Below are positions 2,271-42,137 of a DNA stretch of 64,000 nucleotides, piece after piece. The translations under genes were made by a program, and so were the position numbers. The stretch spans positions 1,674,001 through 1,738,000 of the forward strand of contig NZ_CP055156.1 of assembly GCF_014217805.1 (NCBI RefSeq), written 5' to 3'. The first letter of the stretch is position 1. Each line of letters begins with the position of its first letter. This DNA is from Adhaeribacter swui. GTDB taxonomy: Bacteria > Bacteroidota > Bacteroidia > Cytophagales > Hymenobacteraceae. The notes under the pieces are model-generated. The model was not told where the DNA came from. It worked only from the letters and a program-made list of their open reading frames with translations, and searched no databases.

Positions 2271-2431
2271 CATTAGATTCTTCCGCTTTTTTAAAATTTA
2301 GCTCTCCTGCCAATCTTTAAATCCTATGAATTGTGGTTCAGCCTACTTGTTAGTCATTAGATTTACCTGTTTTTTAAAAATTTAGCCTTCCTGATAATCC
2401 TTAAATCGAATAAATCATGGTTCAGACTACT
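2271..2431. repeat. 77-bp imperfect direct repeat between two FtsX genes
   Basis: Positions 2271-2347 and 2355-2431 align without gaps, both starting CATTAGATT and ending GGTTCAG(C/A)CTACT, with scattered substitutions between. The second copy runs into the stop codon of the upstream permease gene (2427-2429). The repeat may be a remnant of the event that duplicated the permease genes. Confidence 0.85.
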
Positions 2432-4844
2432 CACTCCGCAGGCTATTTACCGGGTTATCTACGGCTGCTTTTATGGCCTGGAAACTTACCGTGAATAAAG
2501 CTACTGCCAGCGCCGCTACTCCGGCCAAAACAAATACCCACCAACCTAATTCAATGCGGTAAGCAAAATCCTGCAGCCAGCGGTGCATGAGCCAGGCGGC
2601 CAGCGGCCAGGCAATAAGGTTGGCCAGTATTACTAATTTTAAAAAATCACGGGAGAGCAAGGCTACAATGTTGGTAACCGAAGCACCTAACACTTTGCGG
2701 ATGCCGATTTCTTTGGTGCGCTGTTCGGTGGCAAAAGTAGCTAAGCCAAACAAACCCAGGCAAGCTACCAGAATAGTAAGTCCCGCAAAAATACCCAAGA
2801 TTTTACCAATCTTTTGTTCGGCCTGGTACGTCTGGTTAAAACGGTCGTCCAGGAAAGCGTAATCAAATGGTTCCTCGGTGGTTAAAGCCTGCCATTGTTT
2901 TTGAGTAGCTTGCAGGAAACCGGCCATATCGGTAGTTTTTACTTTTACAATTAAAGTACCGCCATTATTACTCAAGGTCATTACCAACGGCGAAATAGGT
3001 TCGTGAAAAGATTTAAAATGAAAGTCTTTTACTATCCCAATTACCCGGTGAGTAGTTTTATTGCCTGCGTTATCGGCAGAAGTAAGCGTATGGCCCAGCG
3101 CATTTTTACCCCAGCCAAAAGCTTTTGCCGCTTTTTCGTTTAAAATAACGGCCGAAGAATCAGTAACCATTTTTGGCAAAAAATTACGCCCTGCGGTTAG
3201 CTGCATGCCCAACGTAGGAATATACTGGTCATCTACATCGTACCGCAAAGTTTTAATTAACTGGGTAGTATTTTCGTCGGGGTAAACAATGTAGTTATTA
3301 TTGTTACTGGGACCAGCCGGCAGGTAACCCGAGGAACTCACACTTACTACCCGGGCATCTTGCCGCAACTGCTGCCGGAAAACAGCGGCTTTTTTACCTA
3401 AAGCATATTCCGGGAATAACAGTACCTGGTTTCTATTATAACCTAACTCTTTGCTCTGAATAAACTGCAATTGCCGGTACACCACCGTAGTACTTACCAA
3501 CAGCATCACCGAAATAAAAAATTGAAAAACCACCAGACCACTCCGGAAACTTAAGCTTTTTTTACCTGCGGTAAAATGGCCTTTTAACACGGCTACCGGC
3601 CGGAACGACGACAGAAAAAACGCCGGATAGCTGCCCGCTAAAACGCCCACAAACAAGCCAAAAAACAACAAACCGGGCAATAACCAGGCATTAGCAATTA
3701 AGTTTAGCGTTAAGGTGGTGCCCGCCAGATTATTAAAAATCGGCAAAGCCAAGTACACTAAACCAATAGCCAGCACCAACCCGATAAAGGTTAGTAAAAC
3801 CGACTCCGTGAGAAACTGGCTCACTAATTCTTTTTTTACCGAACCCAGCACTTTGCGGATACCTACTTCTTTGGCCCGTTTAGAAGCGCTAGCCGTTGAT
3901 AAGTTCATAAAATTAATGGTTGCAATAAGCAGCATCAGTACCGCAGTAGCCCCAAAAATATAGATGTACTGCATATTGCTGTTATTACCCAACTCGCCTC
4001 TCAGGTGCGACCGCAGGTGAATACTGGTGAGCGGTTGCAAAAACAACCCAACACTATTGCCGTTTTGCCGGAACCGCTCGAGGTTGATGCCCATGGCTTG
4101 CAGGAATTGTGGCCCCATGTACTTCTCTACGACCTGGGGCAGTTTGGCTTCCAGTTGTTTATAATCGTAACCCTTAGGTAAAACCAGGTAAGTATAAAAT
4201 TCAGAGGTTAACCAGGAAGATTTTTTTGCATCGGGGAAGCTGGCCATGGAAGCAAAAAAATCAAAATGGAAGTGTGCATTAGCCGGTACTTTAGTAATTA
4301 CCCCAGTAACTTTTAAGGAAGTGTTGTAATCTTTAAAAAACAGCATTTTACCCAACGGATTGGCCTTGCCGAAATATTTATGCGCCACCTCTTCCGAGAT
4401 AACAACCGTATTAGGTTCCAGCAGGGCCGTTTTAGGATCGCCCTGCACAAAAGGCAAAGTAAATACCTGGAAGAAATTAGAATCGACAAACGCAAAGGCA
4501 TTTTCGCGGAAAGATTTGTTCTGGTAAATCACACGGGGCGAACCGTAATTGCGCAAGCGGGTGGCTTCCTGCACTTCGGGGTAATCGGTGCGGAGCGTTT
4601 GTGCTACCGGCGGCATTACGTGCGCTTCTTCCATGTTTTCGCCCTGAATAGAACCCCGGAATACTACCCGCACGATGCGGTCGGCTTTGGTATTAAAGCG
4701 GTCGTAACTCCATTCGTTTTGCACGAACAGCAATATTACCAGGCAAGTAGCCATACCTAAGGCCAGCCCAAAAATGTTTATTGCCGAAAAAGCTTTATGG
4801 CGCAACAAGTTGCGAATGGCTATTTTTAAATAATTCTGGAACAT
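2427..4844 (-). CDS. MacB/FtsX-type ABC transporter permease
   Basis: An 805-residue permease, the usual length for this Bacteroidota family. It has an N-terminal helix at about residues 21-41, a periplasmic MacB_PCD-like domain, three helices near 290-405 with EVGIRKVLGS, a further helix near 430, a second periplasmic domain, and a C-terminal FtsX block with EIGIRKVLGAS. It ends in the family signature NPVNSLRSE. It is first in a two-permease unit with the gene at 1-2198, and a sigma-54-like promoter with an upstream operator lies at 4953-5047. No ATPase is adjacent, so it probably uses one encoded elsewhere, perhaps that at 30560-31252. The transported or sensed substrate cannot be deduced. 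Confidence 0.95.
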   Translation of the reverse strand: MFQNYLKIAIRNLLRHKAFSAINIFGLALGMATCLVILLFVQNEWSYDRFNTKADRIVRVVFRGSIQGENMEEAHVMPPVAQTLRTDYPEVQEATRLRNYGSPRVIYQNKSFRENAFAFVDSNFFQVFTLPFVQGDPKTALLEPNTVVISEEVAHKYFGKANPLGKMLFFKDYNTSLKVTGVITKVPANAHFHFDFFASMASFPDAKKSSWLTSEFYTYLVLPKGYDYKQLEAKLPQVVEKYMGPQFLQAMGINLERFRQNGNSVGLFLQPLTSIHLRSHLRGELGNNSNMQYIYIFGATAVLMLLIATINFMNLSTASASKRAKEVGIRKVLGSVKKELVSQFLTESVLLTFIGLVLAIGLVYLALPIFNNLAGTTLTLNLIANAWLLPGLLFFGLFVGVLAGSYPAFFLSSFRPVAVLKGHFTAGKKSLSFRSGLVVFQFFISVMLLVSTTVVYRQLQFIQSKELGYNRNQVLLFPEYALGKKAAVFRQQLRQDARVVSVSSSGYLPAGPSNNNNYIVYPDENTTQLIKTLRYDVDDQYIPTLGMQLTAGRNFLPKMVTDSSAVILNEKAAKAFGWGKNALGHTLTSADNAGNKTTHRVIGIVKDFHFKSFHEPISPLVMTLSNNGGTLIVKVKTTDMAGFLQATQKQWQALTTEEPFDYAFLDDRFNQTYQAEQKIGKILGIFAGLTILVACLGLFGLATFATEQRTKEIGIRKVLGASVTNIVALLSRDFLKLVILANLIAWPLAAWLMHRWLQDFAYRIELGWWVFVLAGVAALAVALFTVSFQAIKAAVDNPVNSLRSE

Positions 4845-4952
4845 AACCGTAGCCGTAATAAGTAAGACAGATATTTGGCCTGGCCGGTAGTAAATTCAGT
4901 TTATTAATTATACCGTTTTAAACTTTTGCTAATACCTGCCGGATAGAATCAA

Positions 4953-4967
4953 GGAAGAAAAATGCCA
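4953..4967 (-). promoter_or_regulatory. sigma-54-like -24/-12 promoter for the first FtsX pair
   Basis: The minus strand reads TGGCATTTTTCTTCC. The -24 half TGGCA is perfect and the final C of the -12 half sits at the canonical spacing, but the consensus G before it is replaced. 13 of 15 bases match the element at 33045-33059 in front of the HlyD-ABC operon. The predicted transcript would start near 4941, about 97 bases before the ATG. The call rests on the match between the two sites. Confidence 0.6.
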
Positions 4968-5029
4968 GAAATGCATACTATTATTACACAACAACTTACA
5001 AGTAAATAAACTTACTTACCCGCGTAAAA

Positions 5030-5047
5030 TTGTCCGGTTTTGATACA
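5030..5047. promoter_or_regulatory. 18-bp upstream operator, identical to one upstream of the HlyD operon
   Basis: TTGTCCGGTTTTGATACA contains a TGT-N11-ACA imperfect dyad. The same 18 bases occur at 33121-33138. Its near edge is 62 bp from the TGGCA element here and 61 bp there, a spacing expected for the binding site of an NtrC-type activator. Confidence 0.65.
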
Positions 5048-5194
5048 GGTTTCGTTCGCTTTTAGAACAAGTAAAACCCCATCGGCGAAAAATCAAATTT
5101 TTTAAATTTTAGCCCGTTAAGCTGGTGTAAATTCAAGCGCTGAAGCAAAAATAAGCACTCGCCGGATTAGTTTACAGGTTTGCCGTTGCTATGC

Positions 5195-19428: not shown

Positions 19429-20472
19429 TTAGCGTACCGACAAAGATAAATTACCGCTGCCGGCATCAGCGGTTATCCGGACGCCGCCGCCGTTTAACTT
19501 GCCCCGAACTTCGTCTTTTTGAATAACTCCATTAAAGGCATTTAGCGTACCTACGTTTACTTCATCGGCTTGTAAATCTAAATCTGCGGAAATGTTTTTG
19601 GGCAAATGCAAAGAAATATCGCCGCCCGAGTTGTTGAGTTTAATGTATTTGCCGGGTTTTTTAATCGCTACTTCCAGGTTTCCCCCGCTCGTTGACGTGG
19701 ACAAGCTACAGGCCATATCTTTTAATTCGATGTCGCCGCCGGAAGTGTGAGCGCTTAGTTCGCCGGTAATGTTATTTCCGTCTACATCGCCGCCCGAAGT
19801 ACTGGCATTAATTACCCCGTTTAAGTTAGTTAAGTGTAAAGAACCACCGGAAGTAGCCAGCTGCAAATTACCGGTACAATCAGTGGCGTTTATATCGCCG
19901 CCGCTGGTAGTTAAATCCATAAAATCTTTCGAATTTTTCAGGTGAATGCTGCCTCCGGATGTACTGCCTTTGGTGCGGCCGCTTACCCGGTCAATCTGTA
20001 AATCGCCGCCGCTGGTAGTAAAATGCTGCTCTCCGGAAATGTTGGTTAATTGAATGTTGCCCCCGCTGGTGGTTAAATTGGTAGCCACTTTCTCGGGCAC
20101 AAACACCCGAAACGAAATATTCAGGCCGCGTTTCCAATCCATTCCTTGTTCTCTAGGCTTGGCCCGAGCAATAAGTTTGCCGCCACTTACCGTAACCGAA
20201 AGGTCATAATCTTCGGCTAAGCGTTTCTGAATTTCGTCTTTGGTTAAGGTTTGGCCGGAGCGTTCGCGGTTGCTGTTTACGTAAACTTCCACGCGGGCAT
20301 CGGCATTACTGCCCCCCGTTACGGCAATGCTGCCCCCTGAGGTTTTTACTTCTACGTTTTTTATTGCCTCGTTAGCTAAGGACTTGGTAAGGTAAGGTGC
20401 CTGGCCCGCTTTAATCTGGGCGTTTGCGGTTAAACTCAGGCCAACCAATAAAAGAGAGATAAAGGTTTTCAT
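19429..20472 (-). CDS. DUF4097-type adhesin-like repeat protein, secreted
   Basis: A 347-residue protein with a signal peptide (cleavage near residue 18, ANA before Q). After the first 110 residues it consists of about ten short repeats around the motif TSGGD(I/L), spaced 15-20 residues, as expected for the single-stranded beta-helix of DUF4097/DUF2807 proteins. It is presumably periplasmic or at the cell surface. Members often sit beside anti-sigma or envelope stress genes, but no such gene is adjacent here, so its role is open. Confidence 0.88.
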   Translation of the reverse strand: MKTFISLLLVGLSLTANAQIKAGQAPYLTKSLANEAIKNVEVKTSGGSIAVTGGSNADARVEVYVNSNRERSGQTLTKDEIQKRLAEDYDLSVTVSGGKLIARAKPREQGMDWKRGLNISFRVFVPEKVATNLTTSGGNIQLTNISGEQHFTTSGGDLQIDRVSGRTKGSTSGGSIHLKNSKDFMDLTTSGGDINATDCTGNLQLATSGGSLHLTNLNGVINASTSGGDVDGNNITGELSAHTSGGDIELKDMACSLSTSTSGGNLEVAIKKPGKYIKLNNSGGDISLHLPKNISADLDLQADEVNVGTLNAFNGVIQKDEVRGKLNGGGVRITADAGSGNLSLSVR

Positions 20473-20760
20473 AATTTTAAATTTTTAAAATTTCATTTAT
20501 TATGCTGTTTCAAAAAACTTTATGCAGAAGCCATGTATACAAACAGACGCGTGGAGTGGAGTATTTATTTTATAATTTTACTCATAATAACAATACCATA
20601 AAATATACTGCATTGATAAACAAACATTTGTGTAAATATAAACGGTAATTTTGCAATTTAAAAGTGTACGGTTGCGGTACAGTGCTGTCCGGATTTGTAC
20701 GGCGGCGGAAGGTTATTATGAGTAATCTTGCTGGTTGAGGAGTTTGCCTATTGGCGGCTT

Positions 20761-23072: not shown

Positions 23073-25544
23073 CTATTCGGTGCGCAAACTCTTTACCGGG
23101 TTGGCTACTGCTGCTTTGATGGCCTGAAAACTAACGGCTAGCAACGCCATTAGAATAGCCGCCAGACCCGCCAGAGCAAATAACCACCACGAGATCGGGG
23201 TACGGTAAGCAAAATCCTGTAGCCACTGGTGCATAAACCAGCCAGCTAAAGGCCAGGCAATTACGTTAGCCAGTAACACCAATTTTAAAAAATCACGGGA
23301 AAGCAACGTTACAATAGAAGTAACCGAAGCCCCCAGTACTTTGCGGATGCCGATTTCTTTGGTGCGCTGCGTAACGGTAAAAGCTACCAAGCCCAGTAAA
23401 CCCAAACAAGCGATAAAAATGGCCAACCCTGTTGCCAGCCGCACAATAGCCGCCGTCTTTTGCTCATTGTCGTAAAAATGGGCAATGGTCTCATCCAAGA
23501 AAGTATAGTGGAAGTTTTGGTCCGGGTACAATTTTTTAAATTCTTGTTCCACTTGGGCCATCGTGGCTTTAACTTCCGCGGCAGACTTGCCGGAAGTGAC
23601 TAATTTTAGATTGAAAGTACGAGCATATCTATTTTCGGAACCAATAAAAACCGGCTCAATGGCTTTATGTAAGGATTGCACGTTAAAATCCGAAATTACT
23701 CCCACAATAGGCAGCTTTTTCTGGTCGAGCAGCAGGTATTTGCCCACAGCTTCGTCGGCCTGTTTAAAACCTAAACTTCGGGCACCAGCTTCGTTTATCA
23801 GCAATTCCTGTAAAGTATCGGCGGGGCGTATATTGCGCCCGGCTAGCAGCTTAATGCCATACAGATTAATGTAGTTTTCGTCGCCGGATTTATTGTGCAG
23901 AATTAAGCTAATTTCTTTTTTACCGTCGAGGTACTTAAATACCATGGTGTTGGTGCCGGAAAGGGCCGGGGTAGAGTGGCTTAAACTTACTTGCGCTACT
24001 GCGGGCATTTGCCGGATCTTGTTTAGTAACACAAACTTCTTCTGGCTTTGGTCGCGCCAGTCAGTTTCAAAAGTAACAATTTGGTCTTGCTTGAAACCCA
24101 TGTCCTGGTTGCGGAGGTAATTAATTTGCGCCCCTACGACGAGGGTTCCCAGAATAAATACCTGCGAAATGGTAAACTGAAACACAATTAAGGTTTTCCG
24201 GAGGTAAGCTTTGCGGGTAGTAGCCGTTGCTATTTGACCTTTGAGCGATTGGATGGGCGCGGCAGCCGATAAAACCCAGGCGGGATAAAAACCTGCCAGC
24301 AAAGTAGTTATTACCAATACTGCGGCTAAAAACAACCATACCGCCGGGCTAAACCAAGGCAAAGAAATACCCGCGGGTAAAAATTTTGAAAAAGCAACCA
24401 GAACAGGGTTGGTGAGCAACACTGCCAGCAGTACTGCTACTAAAGTTAATACAAACGTTTCGCTTAAAAACTGTTTTATTAAACTCCCCCGGTTACTGCC
24501 TAATACTTTGCGCACGCCAATTTCTTTAGCGCGTTGTACCGATTGCGCCGTAGCCAGATTGATAAAATTAATAGCGGCAATCAACAGCAGAAAAGCAGCT
24601 ACTCCCATCAGCGCGTACAAAGTGGGGCGATGCGCCAGCCGCACGTACCCGCCACCATAATCGGCGTTAAAATGAATATCGCGTAGTGGCTGCAGTAAAA
24701 ACGAACGATTGTTATTGTACTCGTCTTTGGGTACGTGCCGGTTTATTAAAGCCGGAAACTGCCGGGCAACCTGGGCGGGCGTGGTTCCGGGGGTTAGTTG
24801 CACAAATAACTGCGACGACGAACTGGTACCAGCCCATTGTTTCAAAGCTAAATTTTCCTGCCAGGCTGGGTTTTGATTAGCGGTAGCGAGCGAAATAAAA
24901 TTGGTAAAATGTAAATCGGTGTTTTGCTGCCAATCCTGCACAATGCCCGACACGGTGACGGTGGTGGTATCCTGGCCATCCAGATAAGTCAGCGTTTTAC
25001 CCAGGTAATTGGCGGCTTTTTGCTTACCAAAGTAGGTCTGCGCCTGCTTTTCCGAAAGTACCACCTGGTACGGTTCCTGTAGGGCGGTCTGCGCGTTACC
25101 AGCCAACCAGTTATATTTAAAAATGGCAAAATACTCCGGATCCGCAATAATATATTTAATGCTGCTGGGGCTGTAATCCACCGTACGAAAATCAAACATT
25201 TTAATTTTACCCGAAGATTGCGGCACATGTACTTGCTCTACCGAATACAATTGAAAAGGCGCTACGTGGGCTAAACCGGTAATTTCTTGTTTTATGGCGG
25301 CAGGAGCAGCCCCGGAAACCCCATTATTTTTGTAAATCTCCCCGGCAAAGCCAAGGTGCGATACCACCCGATAAATTTTACTTTGTTCCGCGTGAAACGT
25401 ATCGTAACTTAATTCGAACCGGGCCAGTAAAAAAATAACTAAACACGCGCTAATGCCAATGGCTAAGCCCAGCACATTAATTCCGGAAAAAGCCGGATAC
25501 TTCCACAAGTTGCGAATAGCTATTTTTAAATTGTTCCGGAACAT
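23073..25544 (-). CDS. MacB/FtsX-type ABC transporter permease
   Basis: An 823-residue permease with the same two-half layout as the others: helix near 21-42, periplasmic MacB_PCD-like domain, FtsX block with EIGVRKVLGSN, second periplasmic domain, and C-terminal FtsX block with EIGIRKVLGAS. It ends NPVKSLRTE. It is the third permease in the HlyD-ABC operon, 41 bp after the previous gene. Its first periplasmic domain is clearly different in sequence from its neighbours, so the paralogues have diverged where a ligand or partner would bind. Confidence 0.95.
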   Translation of the reverse strand: MFRNNLKIAIRNLWKYPAFSGINVLGLAIGISACLVIFLLARFELSYDTFHAEQSKIYRVVSHLGFAGEIYKNNGVSGAAPAAIKQEITGLAHVAPFQLYSVEQVHVPQSSGKIKMFDFRTVDYSPSSIKYIIADPEYFAIFKYNWLAGNAQTALQEPYQVVLSEKQAQTYFGKQKAANYLGKTLTYLDGQDTTTVTVSGIVQDWQQNTDLHFTNFISLATANQNPAWQENLALKQWAGTSSSSQLFVQLTPGTTPAQVARQFPALINRHVPKDEYNNNRSFLLQPLRDIHFNADYGGGYVRLAHRPTLYALMGVAAFLLLIAAINFINLATAQSVQRAKEIGVRKVLGSNRGSLIKQFLSETFVLTLVAVLLAVLLTNPVLVAFSKFLPAGISLPWFSPAVWLFLAAVLVITTLLAGFYPAWVLSAAAPIQSLKGQIATATTRKAYLRKTLIVFQFTISQVFILGTLVVGAQINYLRNQDMGFKQDQIVTFETDWRDQSQKKFVLLNKIRQMPAVAQVSLSHSTPALSGTNTMVFKYLDGKKEISLILHNKSGDENYINLYGIKLLAGRNIRPADTLQELLINEAGARSLGFKQADEAVGKYLLLDQKKLPIVGVISDFNVQSLHKAIEPVFIGSENRYARTFNLKLVTSGKSAAEVKATMAQVEQEFKKLYPDQNFHYTFLDETIAHFYDNEQKTAAIVRLATGLAIFIACLGLLGLVAFTVTQRTKEIGIRKVLGASVTSIVTLLSRDFLKLVLLANVIAWPLAGWFMHQWLQDFAYRTPISWWLFALAGLAAILMALLAVSFQAIKAAVANPVKSLRTE

Positions 25545-25585: not shown

Positions 25586-28003
25586 CTACTCGCTACGCAA
25601 CGCTTGCACCGGGTTGGCTAAAGCAGCCCGGATCGCGTGAAAAGAAATGGTGATTAAGGAAATTATAACCGTGGCCAGGCCCGCTACCCCAAACACCCAC
25701 CAGCTTACGGGCACCTGGTAAGCAAAATCCTGGAGCCACTGGTGCAAACTATACCAGGCCACCGGCCAGGCCAGCACATTGGCAATTATAACCAGCATTA
25801 CAAAATCTTTGGATAACAGGGTAACAATATCCGGAACGGAAGCGCCCATAACTTTGCGCACGCCAATTTCTTTGGTACGCCTCGCCACGGCTAAAGTAGC
25901 CAACCCGAACAAGCCCAGGCAGGAAATAAAAATAGACAAGCCCGATGCAATGTTAATCATCTGGCCCAGGCGCTGCTCCTGCCGGTACTGGTTTTCCAGG
26001 TTTTGGTCCAGGAAGGTATAGGAAAATGGTTCGTTGGGCGCAATTGTTTTCCAGGTTTGTTCCAGTAAGGTTACTTGCTCTGCCAGGTTACCAGGGTGCA
26101 GCCTTACGGAAATATCGGATTGCGACGAAGAAGAGATCATTAAATTTTCGATGCCTTGGTACAAAGAGTCGGGCTGCATGACCAGTACCAGCGGTTTTAC
26201 CGGCGTATGCAACGATTCGAAGTTAAAATCTTCGACTACGCCAATAATGCGGTGCGCCGGAAAGTCGCCGGGTAAACGGGCGTTCAACGGATCTTTCCAG
26301 CCGTATTCTTTTACTAAAGCTTCGTTTACAATAACCGATTGAAATTTATCGGCGGTGTTGCTGGCTGAAAAGTTGCGGCCGGCCTTTAATTGAATGTTGT
26401 AGGTAGGAATAAAGTGCGCATCTACGTTATTTTGGGCAAATTCGCGGTATACTTTCTGGTTATCGTTGTAGCCTACTTCGGCCCAGGGCCCATTGCCAAA
26501 AGGAAACGCCGAAGCCGCCACCGCTGCTACCGCCGGGTGTTTACTAAGTGCCTCCCGAAAACGGGTAATCTGCGCCTGACCAGCTTCGCCACTTTGGGTA
26601 GTAGGAATTACTACTAAACGGTTGGTGTAGTAACCCAAAGGTTTACTTTGCAGGTAATGCATTTGCCGGTTCATTACCAGGGTGCCCACCATCAGAAACA
26701 CCGAAAGCCCGAACTGCACTACTACCAGGCTGCGCCGGAACCAGCTTTGGTCGCCTTTAATGGTTAGTTTGCCTTTTAAAACTTCTACGGGTTTAAAGTT
26801 AGAAAGCACCAAGGCCGGATAACTACCGGCCACTAATCCCACTACCATTATTAAAACCAGCAACAAACCCATGGTGCCGGTATCGAGCACAAATTTTAAA
26901 TTTTTATCGGCGAGCTGGTTAAATACAGGCAACAGCAAAACGGCCAGCAAAAAACCGGTAACCACGGCCAGCACCGTTAAGAACAAGGCCTCGCCCCAGA
27001 ACTGCTGAATGAGTTGACCCCGGATGGCGCCCATTACTTTGCGTACGCCTACTTCGCGCGCCCGGCTCACCGAACGGCCAATCGAGAGCGTCATGAAATT
27101 AATGCAGGCAATGAGTAAAATAAAAAACGCAATGGTAGCTAGTATGTACGAGTAAGCCGGATTGCTAATTGGTTCCAGTCCTTCGGGCAAAGTGTTATTG
27201 AGGTGAATATCCCGGATGGGTTGCAGGTGAACATCGTAGGCTCCCGGCTGGTATTTTTCGCCGAAAGCTACTTTTACCATTTGGGGAAACTTGGCCTCTA
27301 ATTGTTTAGCTTGGGTACCGGACCGCAGCAGCACGTAGGTTTCAGCTTCTACACGTTGCCAGTGGTTCAATGCTTTTTCGCTGCGGAGTTGTTTAATGCG
27401 CCCAAATGGCAGTAAAAAATTAAATTGAATGCTGGAATTGGTAGGTACATTCTGGGCTACGGCAGTTACGGTAAAAGCTTCCAGGGTAGAATCCAGTTGT
27501 ATTTTTAAAATTTTACCTATGGGGTTTGTTTCGCCAAAGTATTTGTGGGCGGTGGCTTGAGTTAGAACCACGCTGTTAATTTCTCGCAAAGGTTCGGGGC
27601 TTTCTTTTTGCACCAAAGGAAAGTCGAACATCTGGAAAAAATCCGGCTCCACCAGGTGAATTTGCTCGGTAAAAATTTCGCTGCCGCGCTGTACTTTGCC
27701 ATCTAGCTTTACCAGGCGGGTGGCTTTTTCTACTTCGGGGTAGTTGGCGACCAAGGCTGGTCCCAGCGGATATGGGGTAGTAGTATTAATGAAAGGCTCA
27801 TTTTTATAAACCTCGTTAATCCAGGGGCGATAAATACGATCGGCTTTCGCGTGAAAATCATCGTAGCTCCATTCGTGTCGCACAAACAGCCCTATTAACA
27901 AGCAACAGGTGATGGCTATACTCAGGCCTAGCATGTTAATGGCCGAATAAGTCTTATGCCGGAAAAAGTGGCGAACCGCAATTTTAAAGTAGTTTTTCAG
28001 CAT
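25586..28003 (-). CDS. MacB/FtsX-type ABC transporter permease
   Basis: An 805-residue permease, the second in the operon. N-terminal helix near 21-42, periplasmic domain, FtsX block with EVGVRKVMGAIRG near residue 320, further helices, and a C-terminal block with EIGVRKVMGASV, ending NPVQALRSE. The gap to the preceding gene is 132 bp, long for an operon, so an internal promoter cannot be excluded, although I find no convincing one. Confidence 0.95.
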   Translation of the reverse strand: MLKNYFKIAVRHFFRHKTYSAINMLGLSIAITCCLLIGLFVRHEWSYDDFHAKADRIYRPWINEVYKNEPFINTTTPYPLGPALVANYPEVEKATRLVKLDGKVQRGSEIFTEQIHLVEPDFFQMFDFPLVQKESPEPLREINSVVLTQATAHKYFGETNPIGKILKIQLDSTLEAFTVTAVAQNVPTNSSIQFNFLLPFGRIKQLRSEKALNHWQRVEAETYVLLRSGTQAKQLEAKFPQMVKVAFGEKYQPGAYDVHLQPIRDIHLNNTLPEGLEPISNPAYSYILATIAFFILLIACINFMTLSIGRSVSRAREVGVRKVMGAIRGQLIQQFWGEALFLTVLAVVTGFLLAVLLLPVFNQLADKNLKFVLDTGTMGLLLVLIMVVGLVAGSYPALVLSNFKPVEVLKGKLTIKGDQSWFRRSLVVVQFGLSVFLMVGTLVMNRQMHYLQSKPLGYYTNRLVVIPTTQSGEAGQAQITRFREALSKHPAVAAVAASAFPFGNGPWAEVGYNDNQKVYREFAQNNVDAHFIPTYNIQLKAGRNFSASNTADKFQSVIVNEALVKEYGWKDPLNARLPGDFPAHRIIGVVEDFNFESLHTPVKPLVLVMQPDSLYQGIENLMISSSSQSDISVRLHPGNLAEQVTLLEQTWKTIAPNEPFSYTFLDQNLENQYRQEQRLGQMINIASGLSIFISCLGLFGLATLAVARRTKEIGVRKVMGASVPDIVTLLSKDFVMLVIIANVLAWPVAWYSLHQWLQDFAYQVPVSWWVFGVAGLATVIISLITISFHAIRAALANPVQALRSE

Positions 28004-28135: not shown

Positions 28136-30478
28136 TTATTCGTTGCGCAAAGCTTTTACCGGATTAGCTATGGCCGCTTTTATGGCCTGCATACTAACCG
28201 TAAGTAAAGCAATAAGAACAGCGGCAACGCCGGCCAGCGCAAATAACTCCCAACCCACGGATGCTCGGTAAGTAAAATTCTGTAACCAGTTATCCACGGC
28301 CCACCACGCCAATGGCCAGGCTATTATGTTAGCCAGCAGCACTAATTTTAAAAAATCAGCCGAAAGTAAAGCAACAATATTGGCGACCGAAGCACCCAGT
28401 ACCTTTCTAATGCCTATTTCTTTAGTCCGCTGTTCGGCCGTGTAGGTTACCAGACCAAATAGGCCCAAACAAGAAATTAATATGGCCACCACTCCAAATA
28501 CATTCACAATAGTATGAATAAGCATTTCGTTGCGGTACAGCTTTTCGTAATTATCGTCCAGAAAATGATAATCAAAGGGGTAAGCTGGATTTAGCTGCCG
28601 GGCAATTTTCTCGGCAGTTTTAATAGCTTCTACCGTACGACCAGGTTGGGTTTTAACAAGCACAAAATTGGTCCAGTTAGAGATATGCCGGATAACCAGG
28701 GGCTGAATGGGAACGTGCAGCGAAGCCAGATGAAAATCTTTCATCAGCCCGATTATGCGTCCTTTCTGGCCCATAAACGTGATCGATTGCCCCACCGGAT
28801 CCTGAAAGCCCATTAGCTTAGCCGCCGATTCGTTTACCAAGATGTGAAGGGAATCGTTGGGGATAGCTTGAAAATCCCGGCCGCTCAACAACGTAATATT
28901 CATTGTTTTTACAAATCCGGTGCCTACCGTCATTTGCCAGATAGTTTCGATTTGCTTTGGATCTTTACCGGGCCAATCCAGGTTACCCGAAGTATTAGAT
29001 CCGATATTTATAGGTAATTCTCCGGTAGTAGTTACTGCTTGTATCGCATCGGAGCGCAATAACTCCTGCTGAAAAACTTTTCGTTTGGTTGCCAGATTAC
29101 CTTCGATGGGTACGTAAAATATGTTTTCGCGATCCAGCCCAAGCCGGGCGGTGCGCAGGTAATCTATTTGCCGCCCTACAACCAGCATGCCTATAATCAG
29201 GAATATAGACAGGATAAACTGAAAAACTACCAAGGACTGCCGTAAACGCGTAGCACTAACTCCCGTTTTTAAAGCTCCTTTAAGTACCCGCACTGGCTGG
29301 AGCGCAGACAAAAACAACGCCGGATAACTACCGGCAATTAAGCCGGTGAGTACGGCCAGCCCCAGTAAGGCAATCCATAATACTGGTTGAGCCAGCTGCA
29401 GCGAAAGTTGTTTTTGCGTAAAGCTGTTTACGTGGGGCAAGGCTAACCATGTTATAGCCAGCGCGAGCACTAAGGCTAATAACGCCATCAGTAACGATTC
29501 GCCCATAAACTGCTGCACAAGAGAAGAACGACCGGCGCCTATTACCTTCCGGACGCCTACTTCCCGGGAGCGGGCGGCAGAACGGGCCGTTGACAAATTC
29601 ATGAAATTAACGCAGGCAATTAGCAGTGTAAATACCGCAATTAAAGTAAACAGCTGAAGATACTCGATGCGCCCACCTACTGGTTTGTCTTGTTCGTATT
29701 CGCCGTATAAATATACTTGGGAGAGTGGTTGCAGGATGGGCCGGAGATTCTTGCTGTCCGGACCCGGATTATACCTGGACACGAGCGTGCGCATGGTATT
29801 TTCTGCTTGGGTGGCCGTTACTTTTGGCCGGAGCTTTACGTAAGTCTGGAAGCTGTTGTTATTCCAGTTATGCATCCAATCTTCCTCGAAAACTTTAAAA
29901 TTAACGATCCAATCAAACTGGACGGAGGAATGAAACGGAATATTTTCCACGACCGCGCCTATCAGATAGTTTTTGGCATTATCGAGCCGGATGGTTTTCC
30001 CGACTACGTCGGAGTTACCGAAGTATTTTTCGGCTAGTTTCCGGGTAATAACAATGGAGGTTAGCGATTGTAAAGCCGTGCGGGGATTACCCTGAATAAT
30101 AGGAAGCTGAAACACATCAAAAAAATCGCTGGAGGCATAATAGCCACTTTCTTTAAAAGCTTTTTCGCCTACTGTCACCAGCAAGTCTTGTGACCAGCTC
30201 AACTTGGTGGCCTTTTCCACTTCGGGAATATCGGTTTTTAACGCTTCGGTAAGCGGACTACTGGTAATATTGCTGGTATACTGCCCATCGAAAATCCGCA
30301 CGAAGTAAAGCCGATCGAGGTCGGGGTAAAAGCGGTTAAATTTTAGTTCATCCTGCACCCACAAGCCAATCAGCAAAGCGCCGGACATACCCAAAGCCAG
30401 CCCGAATAAGTTAATAAAAGAAAATACTTTATGCCGTACCAAATTGCGGACAGCGATAATGAAGTAACTTTTGAGCAT
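28136..30478 (-). CDS. MacB/FtsX-type ABC transporter permease
   Basis: A 780-residue permease directly downstream of the ATPase gene (81 bp gap), hence the most likely direct partner of that ATPase. Features: N-terminal helix near 20-41, MacB_PCD-like periplasmic domain, FtsX block with EVGVRKVIGAGR near residue 310, second half with EIGIRKVLGASV, and end NPVKALRNE. It is slightly shorter than the other permeases in the window. Confidence 0.95.
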   Translation of the reverse strand: MLKSYFIIAVRNLVRHKVFSFINLFGLALGMSGALLIGLWVQDELKFNRFYPDLDRLYFVRIFDGQYTSNITSSPLTEALKTDIPEVEKATKLSWSQDLLVTVGEKAFKESGYYASSDFFDVFQLPIIQGNPRTALQSLTSIVITRKLAEKYFGNSDVVGKTIRLDNAKNYLIGAVVENIPFHSSVQFDWIVNFKVFEEDWMHNWNNNSFQTYVKLRPKVTATQAENTMRTLVSRYNPGPDSKNLRPILQPLSQVYLYGEYEQDKPVGGRIEYLQLFTLIAVFTLLIACVNFMNLSTARSAARSREVGVRKVIGAGRSSLVQQFMGESLLMALLALVLALAITWLALPHVNSFTQKQLSLQLAQPVLWIALLGLAVLTGLIAGSYPALFLSALQPVRVLKGALKTGVSATRLRQSLVVFQFILSIFLIIGMLVVGRQIDYLRTARLGLDRENIFYVPIEGNLATKRKVFQQELLRSDAIQAVTTTGELPINIGSNTSGNLDWPGKDPKQIETIWQMTVGTGFVKTMNITLLSGRDFQAIPNDSLHILVNESAAKLMGFQDPVGQSITFMGQKGRIIGLMKDFHLASLHVPIQPLVIRHISNWTNFVLVKTQPGRTVEAIKTAEKIARQLNPAYPFDYHFLDDNYEKLYRNEMLIHTIVNVFGVVAILISCLGLFGLVTYTAEQRTKEIGIRKVLGASVANIVALLSADFLKLVLLANIIAWPLAWWAVDNWLQNFTYRASVGWELFALAGVAAVLIALLTVSMQAIKAAIANPVKALRNE

Positions 30479-30559: not shown

Positions 30560-31252
30560 CTACACCCCGGAGAATTGTTCTTTTATGTTTTCGAGCACTA
30601 CCTCGCCGTCGAGCAAACGCAGAATGCGGTGGGCGTAACGGGCATCGTGCTCGGAGTGCGTTACCATGATTACCGTGGTACCATTTTCGTTTAAATCGGT
30701 GAGCAGTTCCATTACCTCGTTCCCGTTGCTGGAGTCCAGGTTACCAGTGGGCTCATCCGCTAGGATTAAACGGGGTTTTTGAATAACGGCCCGGGCCACG
30801 GCTACCCGCTGCTGCTGACCACCCGATAATTGTTGCGGGAAATGGTTGCGGCGGTGCATAATCTGCATTTTCTCGAGTACAGCCTCTACTTTTTGCTTGC
30901 GTTCGGCGGCACCCACGCCCAGATAAATTAAAGGCAGTTCTACGTTTTCGAACACCGTTAATTCATCAATCAGGTTAAAGCTCTGGAACACGAAGCCAAT
31001 ATTTTTCTTGCGTAAATCGGCCCGCTGGCGCTCCGAGAAAGTAGCAATTTCCTGGCCCAGAAACTGGAAGCTACCGCCATCGGGTTGGTCGAGCAAGCCC
31101 AGAATGTTTAACAAAGTGGATTTACCGCAACCCGACGGTCCCATGATGGCCACAAACTCCCCTTCGTTTATCACGAACGAGACTTTATTCAGGGCTTTCG
31201 TTTCAACTTCTTCGGTGCGGTACACCTTTTCGAGGTTCGAGATAGTAATCAT
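30560..31252 (-). CDS. ABC transporter ATP-binding protein (MacB/LolD-type)
   Basis: A cytoplasmic ATPase of 230 residues that powers the adjacent FtsX permeases. Walker A is GPSGCGKST at residues 38-46, the Q-loop is in GFVFQSFNLI near 86-95, the signature LSGGQQQR starts at 142, Walker B LILADEPTGNLD starts at 162, and the H-loop His is 199. The sequence is typical of LolD/MacB/FtsE-type ATPases. It is the only ABC ATPase visible in the window, against five FtsX permeases. Confidence 0.97.
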   Translation of the reverse strand: MITISNLEKVYRTEEVETKALNKVSFVINEGEFVAIMGPSGCGKSTLLNILGLLDQPDGGSFQFLGQEIATFSERQRADLRKKNIGFVFQSFNLIDELTVFENVELPLIYLGVGAAERKQKVEAVLEKMQIMHRRNHFPQQLSGGQQQRVAVARAVIQKPRLILADEPTGNLDSSNGNEVMELLTDLNENGTTVIMVTHSEHDARYAHRILRLLDGEVVLENIKEQFSGV

Positions 31253-31307: not shown

Positions 31308-31727
31308 TTAATCTTGCCAGATAACATTATAAATTTTCCAGGTACCGTTGTCCTTAGCCAGATGAAAGTAATCGGTACCCCAATGAGCCTTTACTTTTGC
31401 TACTGCTATTTTATCTTTAATTTCGAAAATAGTGATTTCCTGAGGAGCATCCGGAGCGAGCTTAACGGTTTTGTTCCACCTTGCCGATAATTTTACCATT
31501 TGGCGGAAAGTCATTTTAGTTTCCTGGTATTGACCTTCGCGTTTGTAGTAACCGCGTTTAGCCAGTTCGGGATGTACGCTGGCGTAAACTTTGGCGGTAT
31601 CGGCATTATAAAAGCTATCAACGTAGTTCCGGATGGCCTGGCGTACTGCTTTTTCTTCGGATAGGTTCTGGGCTTGCACCCCGAAACTAAAAATCCAGAT
31701 ACCGATAAAAACCAGCAAGCTTTTCAT
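31308..31727 (-). CDS. secreted NTF2-like (lumazine-binding-like) protein
   Basis: A 139-residue protein with a signal peptide (cleavage near residue 20, VQA before Q). The mature part has the NTF2-like pattern: an N-terminal helix AVRQAIRNYVDSFYNADTAKV, then strands ending DNGTWKIYNVIW, close to the Lumazine_bd_2/DUF4440-like families. It starts 5 bp after the HlyD gene and precedes the ATPase gene, so it is part of the same operon. It may bind a small periplasmic ligand, but no catalytic residues are evident. Confidence 0.87.
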   Translation of the reverse strand: MKSLLVFIGIWIFSFGVQAQNLSEEKAVRQAIRNYVDSFYNADTAKVYASVHPELAKRGYYKREGQYQETKMTFRQMVKLSARWNKTVKLAPDAPQEITIFEIKDKIAVAKVKAHWGTDYFHLAKDNGTWKIYNVIWQD

Positions 31728-31732
31728 GGCCT

Positions 31733-32998
31733 TTATTCTTTTTCTTCTTTAATCACCAGTTCGCCCATGTCTTCGTAGTTTTCGTAGCTCGAGGTAACTA
31801 CTTTGTCGCCGGGGTTCAGGCCCGACACCACTTCGAAATACTCCGGATTCTGGCGACCCAACCGGATTTCGGTTTTGTAAGCTTTATCGCCGTTCTCGTC
31901 GAGTTTAAAGATCCAGTTGCCGCCGGTTTTCTGATAAAAGCCGCCGCGGGGTACCAGAACAGCCTGGGTTTGGTCGGATAAAGCTAAGCGCAGTTGCAAC
32001 GATTGGCCGCGCCGGATGCCCTGAGGTACTTCGCCCACAAATTCCATATCTACCTGAAACTGGCCGTTGGCGCCTACCTGGCTGAATACTTTTTTAATCA
32101 CTAATTCGTAATCTTTATCGGCGTAAGAAAAAGTAGCTTTTTGGTTGGTAAATACCCGGGTAATGTAATGCTGGTCGATGTTGGCGCGCACTTTAAAGCC
32201 ATCCAGTACGTCGATCTGGCCCAGGCGCTGACCGCGGGTTTTTGATTCACCAATTTCGGCGTTAAGCGAAGTAATCTGGCCCTCTACGGGAGCTTTTACC
32301 AGCAAATCGTCCATTTTCTTGCGCATCAAAGCCAAATTGTTTTGCATCCGCTCCACCGATTCTTTCATCTGGCCTAATTGCTGGCTCATATTCAGGGAAT
32401 CCTGCTTTAAGGTACGCAGGGTTAACTGGCGCTTCCGGACCTGGTAATCGTATTTGTATTTGGCTTGCAAAAATTCTTGTTGCGGTACTACTTTTTCTTC
32501 GTAGAGCTTTTTGTTCATCACGTATAAACGCTCGGCATCGCGCAGGTTGTAATCAATGTCGGCGAGTTGGTTGAGCTGCGTAATGCGGTTTTGCTGCATT
32601 AAGTTGCGGGTGGTGTTCATGTTGTTAATTAAATCGAACACGGCCGTTTCGCGGTTCATCATTTCGAGCTGCAAATCGGTATTGGCTAGTTGCACAATCG
32701 GCGTTCCTTCTTTTAATTTAGCGCCGTCTTCTACTAAAACTTTTTGTACGGTACCGCCTTCGCTGGCATCGAGGTAAATGGTTTTAATGGGGAGCACAAT
32801 ACCATCCAGGGGAATAAATTCCTGGAAATTGCCTTTGGTAACATTGCTAATGGTAATTTTATTGGTATCTACATTTAGTTTAGCTTTGCCACTGGTCGAA
32901 AAATAAGAAGCGCCCACCAGCACCACCACCAAGGCTCCCATGGCCAGGCTCACGATTCTTTTGGTAGTCCACTTCTTCTTTTTAATTAAAACGTCCAT
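31733..32998 (-). CDS. HlyD/MacA-type periplasmic adaptor subunit
   Basis: A 421-residue membrane-fusion protein and the first gene of the ABC operon. A signal-anchor helix lies at about 14-33. A split lipoyl-like domain follows (EGGTVQKVLVEDGAKLKEG and VKAPVEGQITSLNAEIG) around a long alpha-helical hairpin at about 115-240, then beta-barrel and membrane-proximal domains to the end. In MacAB-like pumps the adaptor links the permease to an outer-membrane TolC channel. No TolC gene is in this window. Confidence 0.94.
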   Translation of the reverse strand: MDVLIKKKKWTTKRIVSLAMGALVVVLVGASYFSTSGKAKLNVDTNKITISNVTKGNFQEFIPLDGIVLPIKTIYLDASEGGTVQKVLVEDGAKLKEGTPIVQLANTDLQLEMMNRETAVFDLINNMNTTRNLMQQNRITQLNQLADIDYNLRDAERLYVMNKKLYEEKVVPQQEFLQAKYKYDYQVRKRQLTLRTLKQDSLNMSQQLGQMKESVERMQNNLALMRKKMDDLLVKAPVEGQITSLNAEIGESKTRGQRLGQIDVLDGFKVRANIDQHYITRVFTNQKATFSYADKDYELVIKKVFSQVGANGQFQVDMEFVGEVPQGIRRGQSLQLRLALSDQTQAVLVPRGGFYQKTGGNWIFKLDENGDKAYKTEIRLGRQNPEYFEVVSGLNPGDKVVTSSYENYEDMGELVIKEEKE

Positions 32999-33044
32999 TG
33001 TTGTATTTCTTAATAATTAATTTCTTGCTTGTACCGGAACTAAA

Positions 33045-33059
33045 GAAATAAAAATGCCA
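33045..33059 (-). promoter_or_regulatory. sigma-54-like -24/-12 promoter of the HlyD-ABC-FtsX operon
   Basis: The minus strand reads TGGCATTTTTATTTC, with a perfect -24 half (TGGCA) and a -12 half that keeps TT and the final C but lacks the consensus G. The predicted start is near 33033, 35 bases before the adaptor ATG. It matches 4953-4967 at 13 of 15 positions. Confidence 0.62.
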
Positions 33060-33120
33060 AACATATAATCGTCTTTATTTCAGTATTTTACGCCATTATT
33101 TTACGTAAAATTTAAAAAAT

Positions 33121-33171
33121 TTGTCCGGTTTTGATACACCTAAACCGGGCAAAGTGTCCGGTGATGTAACA
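33121..33171. promoter_or_regulatory. two TGT-N11-ACA operators upstream of the HlyD operon
   Basis: Site 1 is 33121-33138 (TTGTCCGGTTTTGATACA), identical to 5030-5047. Site 2 is 33154-33171 (GTGTCCGGTGATGTAACA). The two are 33 bp apart, about three helical turns, and have the same orientation. Site 1 begins 61 bp upstream of the TGGCA element, a normal position for a sigma-54 activator site. Confidence 0.65.
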
Positions 33172-40805: not shown

Positions 40806-42137
40806 ATGGCAAAAATATTAGTGATAGAAGACGATTTAACCTTTGCGCTGATACTGGAAGGCTTTTTAAAAAAACAAGGCTTTGAAGTAAACGTAGCCCA
40901 CCGGGTTAAAGATGGCATAAAGTTGTTGGGAAGCCAGCAGTACCAATTGGTTTTAATGGACTACCGCTTACCCGATGGTATTGGTTTTGAAATTTTAGAA
41001 TTTATCCGGAATCTGCCGGCCCCGATTCCCGGCATTATGATGACAAGCTTTCAGGATGTGGGTACGGCCGTTAGGGCCATGCGCCTGGGCGCTTTCGATT
41101 ACATTACCAAACCCGTTAACCCCGACGAGTTGCTGATGGTAATTAAAGAAGTACTACCCTCCGAAGAGGAAGCGGGTCGGGCAAAATTGGCGGGTTCGTC
41201 GCTGTTTATCGCGGGCCATAGCTACGCCTCCAAGCAATTACACGAGTTTATACAGTTGGTAGCTCCTACGGATATGTCGGTGATTGTGCAGGGCGAAAGC
41301 GGCACCGGCAAAGAATACGTAGCCCGTACCATTCATCAGCAAAGTAAACGGACCGAAGCTCCTTTTGTGGCCGTAGATTGCGGCGCTATTTCCGGCGAAA
41401 TTGCCAACAGCGAGCTTTTCGGGCACGTAAAAGGCGCTTTTACCGGTGCTACCCACGATAAACAAGGCTTATTTGAAACCGCGCACGGCGGCACTATTTT
41501 CCTCGACGAAGTAGGTAATCTTACTTATGAAATTCAGGTAAAACTCTTACGCGCTTTGCAGGAACGTATTATTCAACCGCTGGGCAGCAATAAACAAATA
41601 AACGTAGACGTACGGGTAATTACCGCTACCAACGACGACCTGGTAAACAGCGTAAAGAACGGCGACTTTCGCGAAGATTTATACCACCGCTTAAACGAAT
41701 TTAAAATTAAAGTGCCCTCGCTGCGCGACCGGGAAGCTGATTTAGAAGAATTTGTGACGCACTTTATCGATTTGGCTAATCAGGAACTTAACCGGAACGT
41801 GCAGGCATTTTCGCCGGAAATGATGGCTATTTTACGGGATTACCATTGGCCCGGCAATTTGCGCGAATTAAAAAATGTGGTTAAAAGAGCCGTATTGCTC
41901 TCACCGGGCGAAATTGCCGGCCCCGAAACTTTACCCGAAGAAATGGTAAATGCGGTAAACGAAGTGCCTAAAACCGAAGGCCCGGACTTAAAAGCCCTGC
42001 AGGAAGCTAACGAACGCGAGCTTATTTATAAAACTTTACAAGAAGTAAAATACAACAAATCCAAAGCCGCCCGCCTGTTAAACATCGACCGGAAAACGCT
42101 TTACCTGAAGCTGGCCAAGTATAACCTGGAAAATTAA
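40806..42137 (+). CDS. sigma-54-dependent response regulator, NtrC family
   Basis: A 443-residue activator with three domains. The receiver domain (about 3-118) has phospho-acceptor Asp52 in LVLMDYRLPDG and Lys102. The AAA+ domain (about 135-365) has Walker A GESGTGKE at 163-170 and the sigma-54-contacting loop GAFTGA at 210-215. A Fis-type helix-turn-helix ends the protein (about 400-441, NKSKAARLLNIDRKTLYLKL). GAFTGA shows it should open sigma-54 promoters. A hybrid kinase gene converges on it from 13 bp away. The sigma-54-like promoters at 4953 and 33045 are candidate targets. Confidence 0.96.
   Translation: MAKILVIEDDLTFALILEGFLKKQGFEVNVAHRVKDGIKLLGSQQYQLVLMDYRLPDGIGFEILEFIRNLPAPIPGIMMTSFQDVGTAVRAMRLGAFDYITKPVNPDELLMVIKEVLPSEEEAGRAKLAGSSLFIAGHSYASKQLHEFIQLVAPTDMSVIVQGESGTGKEYVARTIHQQSKRTEAPFVAVDCGAISGEIANSELFGHVKGAFTGATHDKQGLFETAHGGTIFLDEVGNLTYEIQVKLLRALQERIIQPLGSNKQINVDVRVITATNDDLVNSVKNGDFREDLYHRLNEFKIKVPSLRDREADLEEFVTHFIDLANQELNRNVQAFSPEMMAILRDYHWPGNLRELKNVVKRAVLLSPGEIAGPETLPEEMVNAVNEVPKTEGPDLKALQEANERELIYKTLQEVKYNKSKAARLLNIDRKTLYLKLAKYNLEN

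Follow-up and report, generated by a model that had tools for sequence, protein, structure and literature searches.

Twin sigma-54-like promoters ahead of MacB-type permease genes in Adhaeribacter swui appear to belong to one scattered two-component regulon

In the 6.2-Mb genome of Adhaeribacter swui, at least eight scattered promoters, mostly in front of MacB-type export genes, appear to be switched together by one two-component regulator. Two of these promoters lie in the stretch of DNA analyzed here (G000:C3:1674001-1738000, 64,000 nucleotides; hereafter the window), outside of which the regulator itself would be encoded. Taken as a whole, the data are best explained if the two window sites are enhancer-plus-promoter modules of one regulon, and we consider it quite probable that this is a regulon of sigma-54 modules under a kinase and the NtrC-type regulator 1557782-1559158. 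The compared sequences directly document the sites, their spacing, their gene content, and their co-occurrence and adjacency with regulator orthologues.

The first-pass annotation had reported one 18-mer, TTGTCCGGTTTTGATACA, as identical at 5030-5047 and 33121-33138. This identity was borne out; the window contains no further match with up to 3 mismatches, and 100 shuffles gave a mean of 0.09 matches and never reached two. The sigma-54-like element described behind each copy was likewise found on the minus strand, as TGGCATTTTTCTTCC and TGGCATTTTTATTTC, 62 and 61 bp past the 18-mer (63 and 62 when counted from the 17-bp operator) and identical at 13 of 15 positions. At both loci, the element 3′ of the operators reads TGGCATTTTT(C/A)TT(C/T)C. 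The 17-mer core TGTATCAAAACCGGACA is given as read on the minus strand, that is, in the direction of the downstream genes, and is the predicted downstream (proximal) operator of a tandem pair. An upstream operator had thus been correctly recognized, but it is a pair whose second member, further upstream, had been missed. The MacB/FtsX genes expected downstream of both sites are present at the two loci, termed A and B (Table 1). At locus A, the same-strand run goes on with two more permeases, one truncated at the window start and the next lying beyond it. At a weak third candidate, locus C, TGGTAT follows 66 bp past the operator-like site.

Table 1. Features of loci A, B and C, in window coordinates.
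Locus	Feature	Position	Strand	Details
A	Predicted proximal operator TGTATCAAAACCGGACA	5031..5047	-	six genomic copies (≤2 mismatches) with common layout
A	Predicted distal operator TGTTCTAAAAGCGAACG	5053..5069	-	22 bp (two turns) upstream of proximal
A	Palindromic IHF-like element, 25 bp	4974..4998	-	12/17 specified positions, among the weaker ones
A	Sigma-54-like promoter TGGCATTTTTCTTCCT	4952..4967	-	-24 box and variant -12 box
A	First gene, 805-aa permease	2427..4844	-	two MacB_PCD and two FtsX domains
B	Predicted proximal operator TGTATCAAAACCGGACA	33122..33138	-	exact 17-mer
B	Predicted distal operator TGTTACATCACCGGACA	33155..33171	-	33 bp (three turns) upstream
B	Palindromic IHF-like element	33066..33090	-	13/17 positions
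B	Sigma-54-like promoter TGGCATTTTTATTTCT	33044..33059	-	
B	HlyD/MacA-type membrane fusion protein	31733..32998	-	
B	Putative lumazine-binding-like small protein	31308..31727	-	
B	ABC ATPase, MacB/LolD/DarD-like	30560..31252	-	below equivalog cut-offs
B	MacB_PCD/FtsX permease	28136..30478	-	
B	MacB_PCD/FtsX permease	25586..28003	-	
B	MacB_PCD/FtsX permease	23073..25544	-	
C	Weak degenerate candidate site	20583..20699	-	model E 2.2e-6 (match 20575-20698)
C	Operator-like TGTACCGCAACCGTACA	20665-20681	-	
C	Second CCGGACA-type site	20686-20699	-	
C	DUF4097 (toast-rack) protein	19429..20472	-	downstream of weak candidate

Genome-wide, the 17-mer matched 30 places with up to 3 mismatches, compared to 15 for a reversed-pattern control. 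In the genome check of motif plus spacing proposed with the first observation, six of the seven copies with at most 2 mismatches, found without requiring TGGCA, have TGGCAT, within TGGCATNTT, 62-64 bp downstream, and the seventh lies inside a 684-codon open frame. None of the 23 places with 3 mismatches showed TGGCA at 56-68 bp; in one, which the promoter model subsequently picked up, it stands at 51 bp, closer by one helical turn. The six loci are A and B, permeases at 1929420, 2010913, and 2021953, and a TolC-like protein at 1996949. The promoter model, built from sequence only by aligning 20 promoters of four genus members, identified eight promoters in the own genome at E ≤ 1e-8. Its two additions lie at 1940847-1940977, preceding a toast-rack protein with a weak LiaF-like match, and at 4154277-4154389, preceding a DUF4932 protein. 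The two loci singled out at first are therefore both real, but according to the model the regulon comprises about eight promoters, not two. A weaker model match at 243473 (E 0.0015) is the site of a regulator paralogue (241995-243371) discussed below. Another match at 1569677 (E 0.01), without TGGCA, was left out of the regulon.

Of the 51 FtsX domains identified genome-wide, 36 fall in same-strand runs behind five of the promoters, which makes up to 18 duplicated permeases (three each at A and B, and 4, 5, and 3 in the remaining runs). Internal promoters are possible because some gaps within the runs measure 200-400 bp. In the permease runs examined, we saw a single ABC ATPase and a single fusion protein, each encoded at locus B, and the permeases tested have no fused ATPase. 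From these domains we infer an exporter function; the idea that the permeases might share the ATPase stems from there being no second one in the runs examined. Such a set could also consist of functionless relics of operon duplication, the promoter having been copied along, as the downstream permeases come from a single family and the six loci sit close together, within 1.68-2.02 Mb. However, the operator-promoter spacers are dissimilar, yet the operators, the palindrome positions described below, and the -24/-12 positions are kept; the module also precedes other families (fusion protein, TolC-like, toast-rack, DUF4932), and one variant holds phase at three turns. We therefore regard relics as a barely credible explanation and proceed with functional modules.

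To describe the module, we collected 50 distinct promoters, each with TGGCA(T/C) located 56-68 bp past an operator that had at most 4 mismatches. This set includes the promoter of L092, missed by a first TTT filter; L103 and L106, which matched the spacing pattern without an operator, were dropped before model building. The gap from operator to TGGCA is 62 bp in 31 promoters, 63 in 16, and 64 in 3. When up to 5 mismatches are allowed, the best-matching distal operator is placed 22, 23, or 33 bp further upstream in 49 of the 50; for the six loci of the own genome, a second operator-like 17-mer is found 22 or 23 bp upstream in five and 33 bp upstream at locus B. These distances equal two or three helical turns, as same-face cooperative binding would need.

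The downstream element reads TGGCAY-N5-TT(A 60, T 22, C 18%)(C 54, T 30%)T(82%), where the invariance of TGGCA is a product of the search design, and the five bases between TGGCAY and the -12 box are kept throughout. G at -12 is present in none of the 50 promoters; the next position is C in 54%, with T before and after as in TTGCT. A published promoter scan quotes the consensus TGGCAC-N5-TTGCT and names validated E. coli promoters that also deviate at the -12 GC (PMC12316311). The first-pass annotation had noted the missing G and offered weakness or a lineage variant as explanations; its absence from the whole set identifies it as a feature of these genomes and not as a weakness of the two sites.

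The missing -12 G would also fit a scenario in which TGGCAT is part of another factor's site and transcription starts, not from a sigma-54 promoter, but from TAnnTTTG, the ordinary Bacteroidota housekeeping promoter consensus, which overlaps TGGCA at locus B and in two relatives (L095, L271). However, TAnnTTTG is not enriched (5 of 63 promoter segments versus a shuffle mean of 5.5), no TTG lies 17-23 bases upstream of it within the segment, and TGGCAY-N5-TTxYT keeps the -24/-12 spacing. Moreover, among 25 comparable promoters beside related regulators outside the family, 18 have G at -12 and 13 have GC, examples being TGGCACGGTATTTGCT (L300) and TGGCACGCTTTCTGCT (L325). These GC-bearing promoters are the best evidence that the window TGGCAT represents a -24 box. 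A housekeeping start is, in our estimation, very unlikely, and sigma-54 dependence remains the preferred reading; the genome contains one rpoN gene, with ARRTVAKYRE, which we take to be the RpoN box.

Just upstream of the -24 box, a 25-bp palindrome, YAAN4YTGATWATCARN4TTR, occupies positions -31 to -7, counted from the T of TGGCA. Within the 50 spacers, A-30, A-15, and T-8 are invariant and T-23 is present in 49. The dyad score is 0.52 at the palindrome center and at most 0.40 at any other, and the spacers match a mean of 14.3 of 17 specified positions (6.6 in shuffled spacers). Each half matches what is presumably the IHF consensus, WATCARN4TTR. Exact WATCARNNNNTTR occurs between enhancer and promoter in 23 of the 50 spacers (shuffles: mean 0.86, maximum 5), and the 25 exact half-consensus matches comprise 14 on the minus strand at -31, 9 on the plus strand at -19, and two elsewhere. 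A PF00216 (HU/IHF) family search of the genome found one gene, at 2643508, and the palindrome could serve a dimer other than IHF.

As the pattern was derived from these 50 spacers, we retested it on other loci. In 61 loci outside Hymenobacteraceae, 25 TGGCAY behind tandem TGT..ACA sites scored a mean of 13.4, with 22 of the 25 reaching at least 12; these scores are the best of four registers (-33 to -30) and include closely related loci that are not independent. For the other 575 TGGCAY in the same loci, the mean was 7.9, with 3% reaching at least 12 and a maximum of 15. Among the 67 TGGCAY of the window, the two focal promoters rank top (13 and 12), although both are weaker than the 14.3 average. 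Of 13 candidate promoters of paralogous regulators, 3 reach at least 12 even with a free register. The palindrome is well placed, at -32, at two permease-side promoters of this group (L110, 14/17; L119, 15/17), and the remaining ones score 7-12 at the best register.

Eight strong sigma-54 activator matches were found in the genome, one of them with an in-frame stop. This gene (1845125-1846468; L052) has a TAA within the AAA+ domain and an N-terminus resembling that of the intact gene 3326771-3328111, and is probably a pseudogene or a sequence error; a further activator with a response-regulator domain (5551065-5552231) has a 388-aa frame that stops before the HTH in the alignment. The likely activator of the regulon is the protein encoded at 1557782-1559158, which combines receiver, AAA+ sigma-54 activation, and Fis-type HTH domains. 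The adjacent kinase gene, 1556431-1557792, predicts two hydrophobic stretches about seven residues apart, a weak PAS, and a clear HATPase domain; two close membrane helices are the layout of intramembrane-sensing kinases. The NtrC-type gene within the window (40806-42137) was rejected as the activator on account of its different recognition helix and its identity of 35% to the regulator 1557782-1559158. Together with a convergent hybrid histidine kinase with Hpt (42151-44745, minus strand), this plus-strand gene probably forms a separate two-component system.

Because the regulator gene of the own genome adjoins no target promoter, its assignment rests on relatives. Among nine orthologue loci inspected at the outset, five have an operator divergent from the regulator, with TGGCAT 62 bp further on; the operator reads TGTATCAAAACCG(G/A)ACA in four of these and TGTATCATAACCGGACG in G029. 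Across 120 family genomes (orthologues at ≥64% identity, model hits at E ≤ 1e-6 with Infernal's stricter filters), 62 genomes have orthologues (64 genes in total) and 62 have model hits. Regulator and promoter are both present in 58 genomes and both missing in 54, with four having only the regulator (G008, G033, G066, G092) and four only the promoter (G001, G004, G080, G119; Fisher p 4e-24, inflated by the relatedness of the genomes).

A divergent model hit lies within 1.5 kb of 53 of the 64 regulator genes, 48 of them at 83-332 bp, and none of these regulator-adjacent sites was in the model's training set. The 11 genes with no near hit include those of the own genome and G003, where operon and regulator lie apart, of G034 (hit 1.8 kb off), of G062 (gene start at the contig edge), and of G013 (adjacent site just under the threshold, E 2.7e-6). 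At 23 loci with hits in relatives, two of them from another family of the order (L195, L196), a fusion-protein or FtsX gene lies downstream in every case and the regulator within the 3.1 kb examined in 22. At the order level, 6 of 148 genomes reach a model E ≤ 1e-9, which points to a limited spread of this operator type. The initial proposal of one NtrC-type activator for sigma-54-type MacB promoters thus gains support from the spacing, the recurrence at six or more loci, the co-occurrence, the adjacency to one orthologue group, and the GC -12 box beside related regulators outside the family.

Alternatively, the promoters might answer mainly to the paralogue 241995-243371, or to both regulators as a cross-regulated network. 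This protein is 54% identical over its whole length and shares the recognition-helix core LGITRTALYRR; its divergent FtsX gene has a related tandem operator (TGTTCGGAACCGGACA), a palindrome at -32 (14/17), and TGGCAT (TGGCATTCTTATTGGC). However, the paralogue's own operator differs in the left half, and TGTATC-type operators of the window's kind adjoin orthologues of the 1557782 regulator. In addition, in G001, which has a paralogue orthologue (74%) and lacks the other regulator, the model matches only marginally and in part (E 8e-7, positions 4-82). We hold a leading or shared role of the paralogue to be unlikely and retain 1557782-1559158 as the candidate activator. Further paralogues in relatives adjoin GTGTTC..GAACAC dyads, and it seems that operators changed along with their regulators, the other parts of the module being kept. 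At the paralogue 241995-243371 and L058 (4360-5000), a second TGGCAT in the direction of the regulator suggests autoregulation.

The sigma-54-contact loop of the candidate activator reads GSFTDA, not GAFTGA. G(A/S)FTDA is found in all 30 orthologue loci L202-L231, and FTDA in 76 of 79 motif occurrences among 80 named relative loci; own-genome activators outside this regulator family have FTGA or FTSA. According to a study on NorR, G266D, the equivalent of the FTDA change, is constitutive with full escape from repression (PMC2941729). A coupling of the FTDA loop to the loss of the -12 G was rejected, as Bacteroidales relatives combine FTDA with GC at -12.

Outside the genus, a strict pattern search was uninformative (23 matches versus 22 in a reversed control), and the model search performed better. 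We took the 80 named loci with regulator relatives and scored divergent matches against our own reference proteins. In 40 loci, the closest divergent match lies within 900 bp and is to an exporter component, namely to a fusion protein in 26, to an FtsX permease in 9, and to a TolC-like protein in 5; exporter adjacency is thus common, not general. Of the other 40, 24 have no divergent match in the stretch examined, and the match in the remaining 16 is more distant. The tandem operators that were found in Bacteroides, Phocaeicola, and other Bacteroidales (~44-48% identity) are different dyads, of the TGTCTAATTATTAGACA type, and the palindrome and a TGGCAY promoter come after them. Two Ferruginibacter MAGs (L269, L270) have two identical tandem TGTATCAAAACCGAACA operators outside Hymenobacteraceae, and this operator type may thus predate the family. 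On four MAG contigs labelled KSB1, Emcibacter, and alpha- or gammaproteobacterial (L278, L280, L282, L306), regulator and fusion protein lie side by side, reflecting transfer or mis-binning.

In the mechanism we propose, the membrane kinase would phosphorylate the NtrC-type regulator in response to envelope stress or a peptide. Regulator dimers would bind the two tandem 17-bp operators, two or three helical turns apart, and the assembled ring would contact RNA polymerase with sigma-54 at TGGCAY-N5-TTHYT, 62-64 bp downstream, in a presumably RpoN-dependent manner. A DNA bend at the 25-bp IHF-like palindrome upstream of the -24 box may help this contact. Each permease run would form one transcript. 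A MacAB-TolC-like set would thereby be switched on jointly: a single fusion protein, a single ATPase, and a single TolC-like channel, the five same-strand runs with their up to 18 duplicated FtsX/MacB permeases, and the toast-rack envelope protein. As a tentative generalization, one we would not yet favor, kinase/NtrC-type (FTDA) pairs across Bacteroidota might run interchangeable orphan MacB-type permeases that share one ATPase, fusion protein, and TolC channel, via promoters in which a homodimeric IHF-like protein bends the DNA at a symmetric site; the operators would have diverged per regulator while bend site and sigma-54 box stayed.

Through our analysis, an unexplained accumulation of FtsX/MacB permeases (up to 18, behind five promoters, in a single genome) can be read as one testable regulon with a named candidate activator. 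The promoter could serve directly as a reporter in the search for the signal to which these two-component systems respond, promoters lacking the -12 G offer material for the study of sigma-54, and the candidate symmetric bend-type element is one that the textbook model does not require. The regulators also supply a natural FTDA version of the sigma-54-contact loop, comparable to the constitutive NorR G266D (PMC2941729).

Closest to these findings is a 2025 promoter scan, which, in the part of its text seen, reports enrichment of FtsX-like permeases (COG0577) among sigma-54 targets in Bacteroidia and calls this first evidence (PMC12316311). It makes the same link between sigma-54 and FtsX-like antimicrobial-peptide permeases, but at the level of class-wide enrichment, that part of the text giving no regulator, operator, regulon membership, or palindrome. 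In the open-access literature, narrow search terms, a weak basis for absence, returned no report of this activator, operator, regulon, or palindrome. Like the MacAB-TolC pump, the set described here has a fusion protein, an ABC ATPase, MacB_PCD/FtsX permeases, and a TolC-like channel under one promoter type; unlike it, the permeases are duplicated (two MacB_PCD, two FtsX) and number up to 18, and the ATPase is separate. ADOP permeases (TIGR03434) match over nearly the full duplicated permease, but two permeases tested score 308 and 353 bits against a cut-off of 622. Bce/Lia-type systems are envelope-stress modules of Firmicutes; they share with our system a kinase with two close membrane helices, FtsX-type permeases, and a toast-rack/LiaF-like protein in the regulon, whereas the output here would be NtrC/sigma-54 and not an OmpR- or NarL-type regulator.

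Systems in which an enhancer-binding protein acts on sigma-54 promoters are well known, examples being the regulons of NtrC, NorR, and PspF. In common with these, we find receiver, AAA+, and Fis-type HTH domains, upstream tandem operators, a TGGCA -24 box, and a candidate bend-type site in between. The present system differs from them in GSFTDA for GAFTGA, in a -12 box lacking G, in an IHF-like element that is palindromic and not one-sided, and in its MacB-type exporter targets. Its target set, its -12 variant, and its candidate symmetric bend-type element set it apart as a variant of this known kind, and its composite promoter layout appears to recur beside related regulators elsewhere in Bacteroidota.
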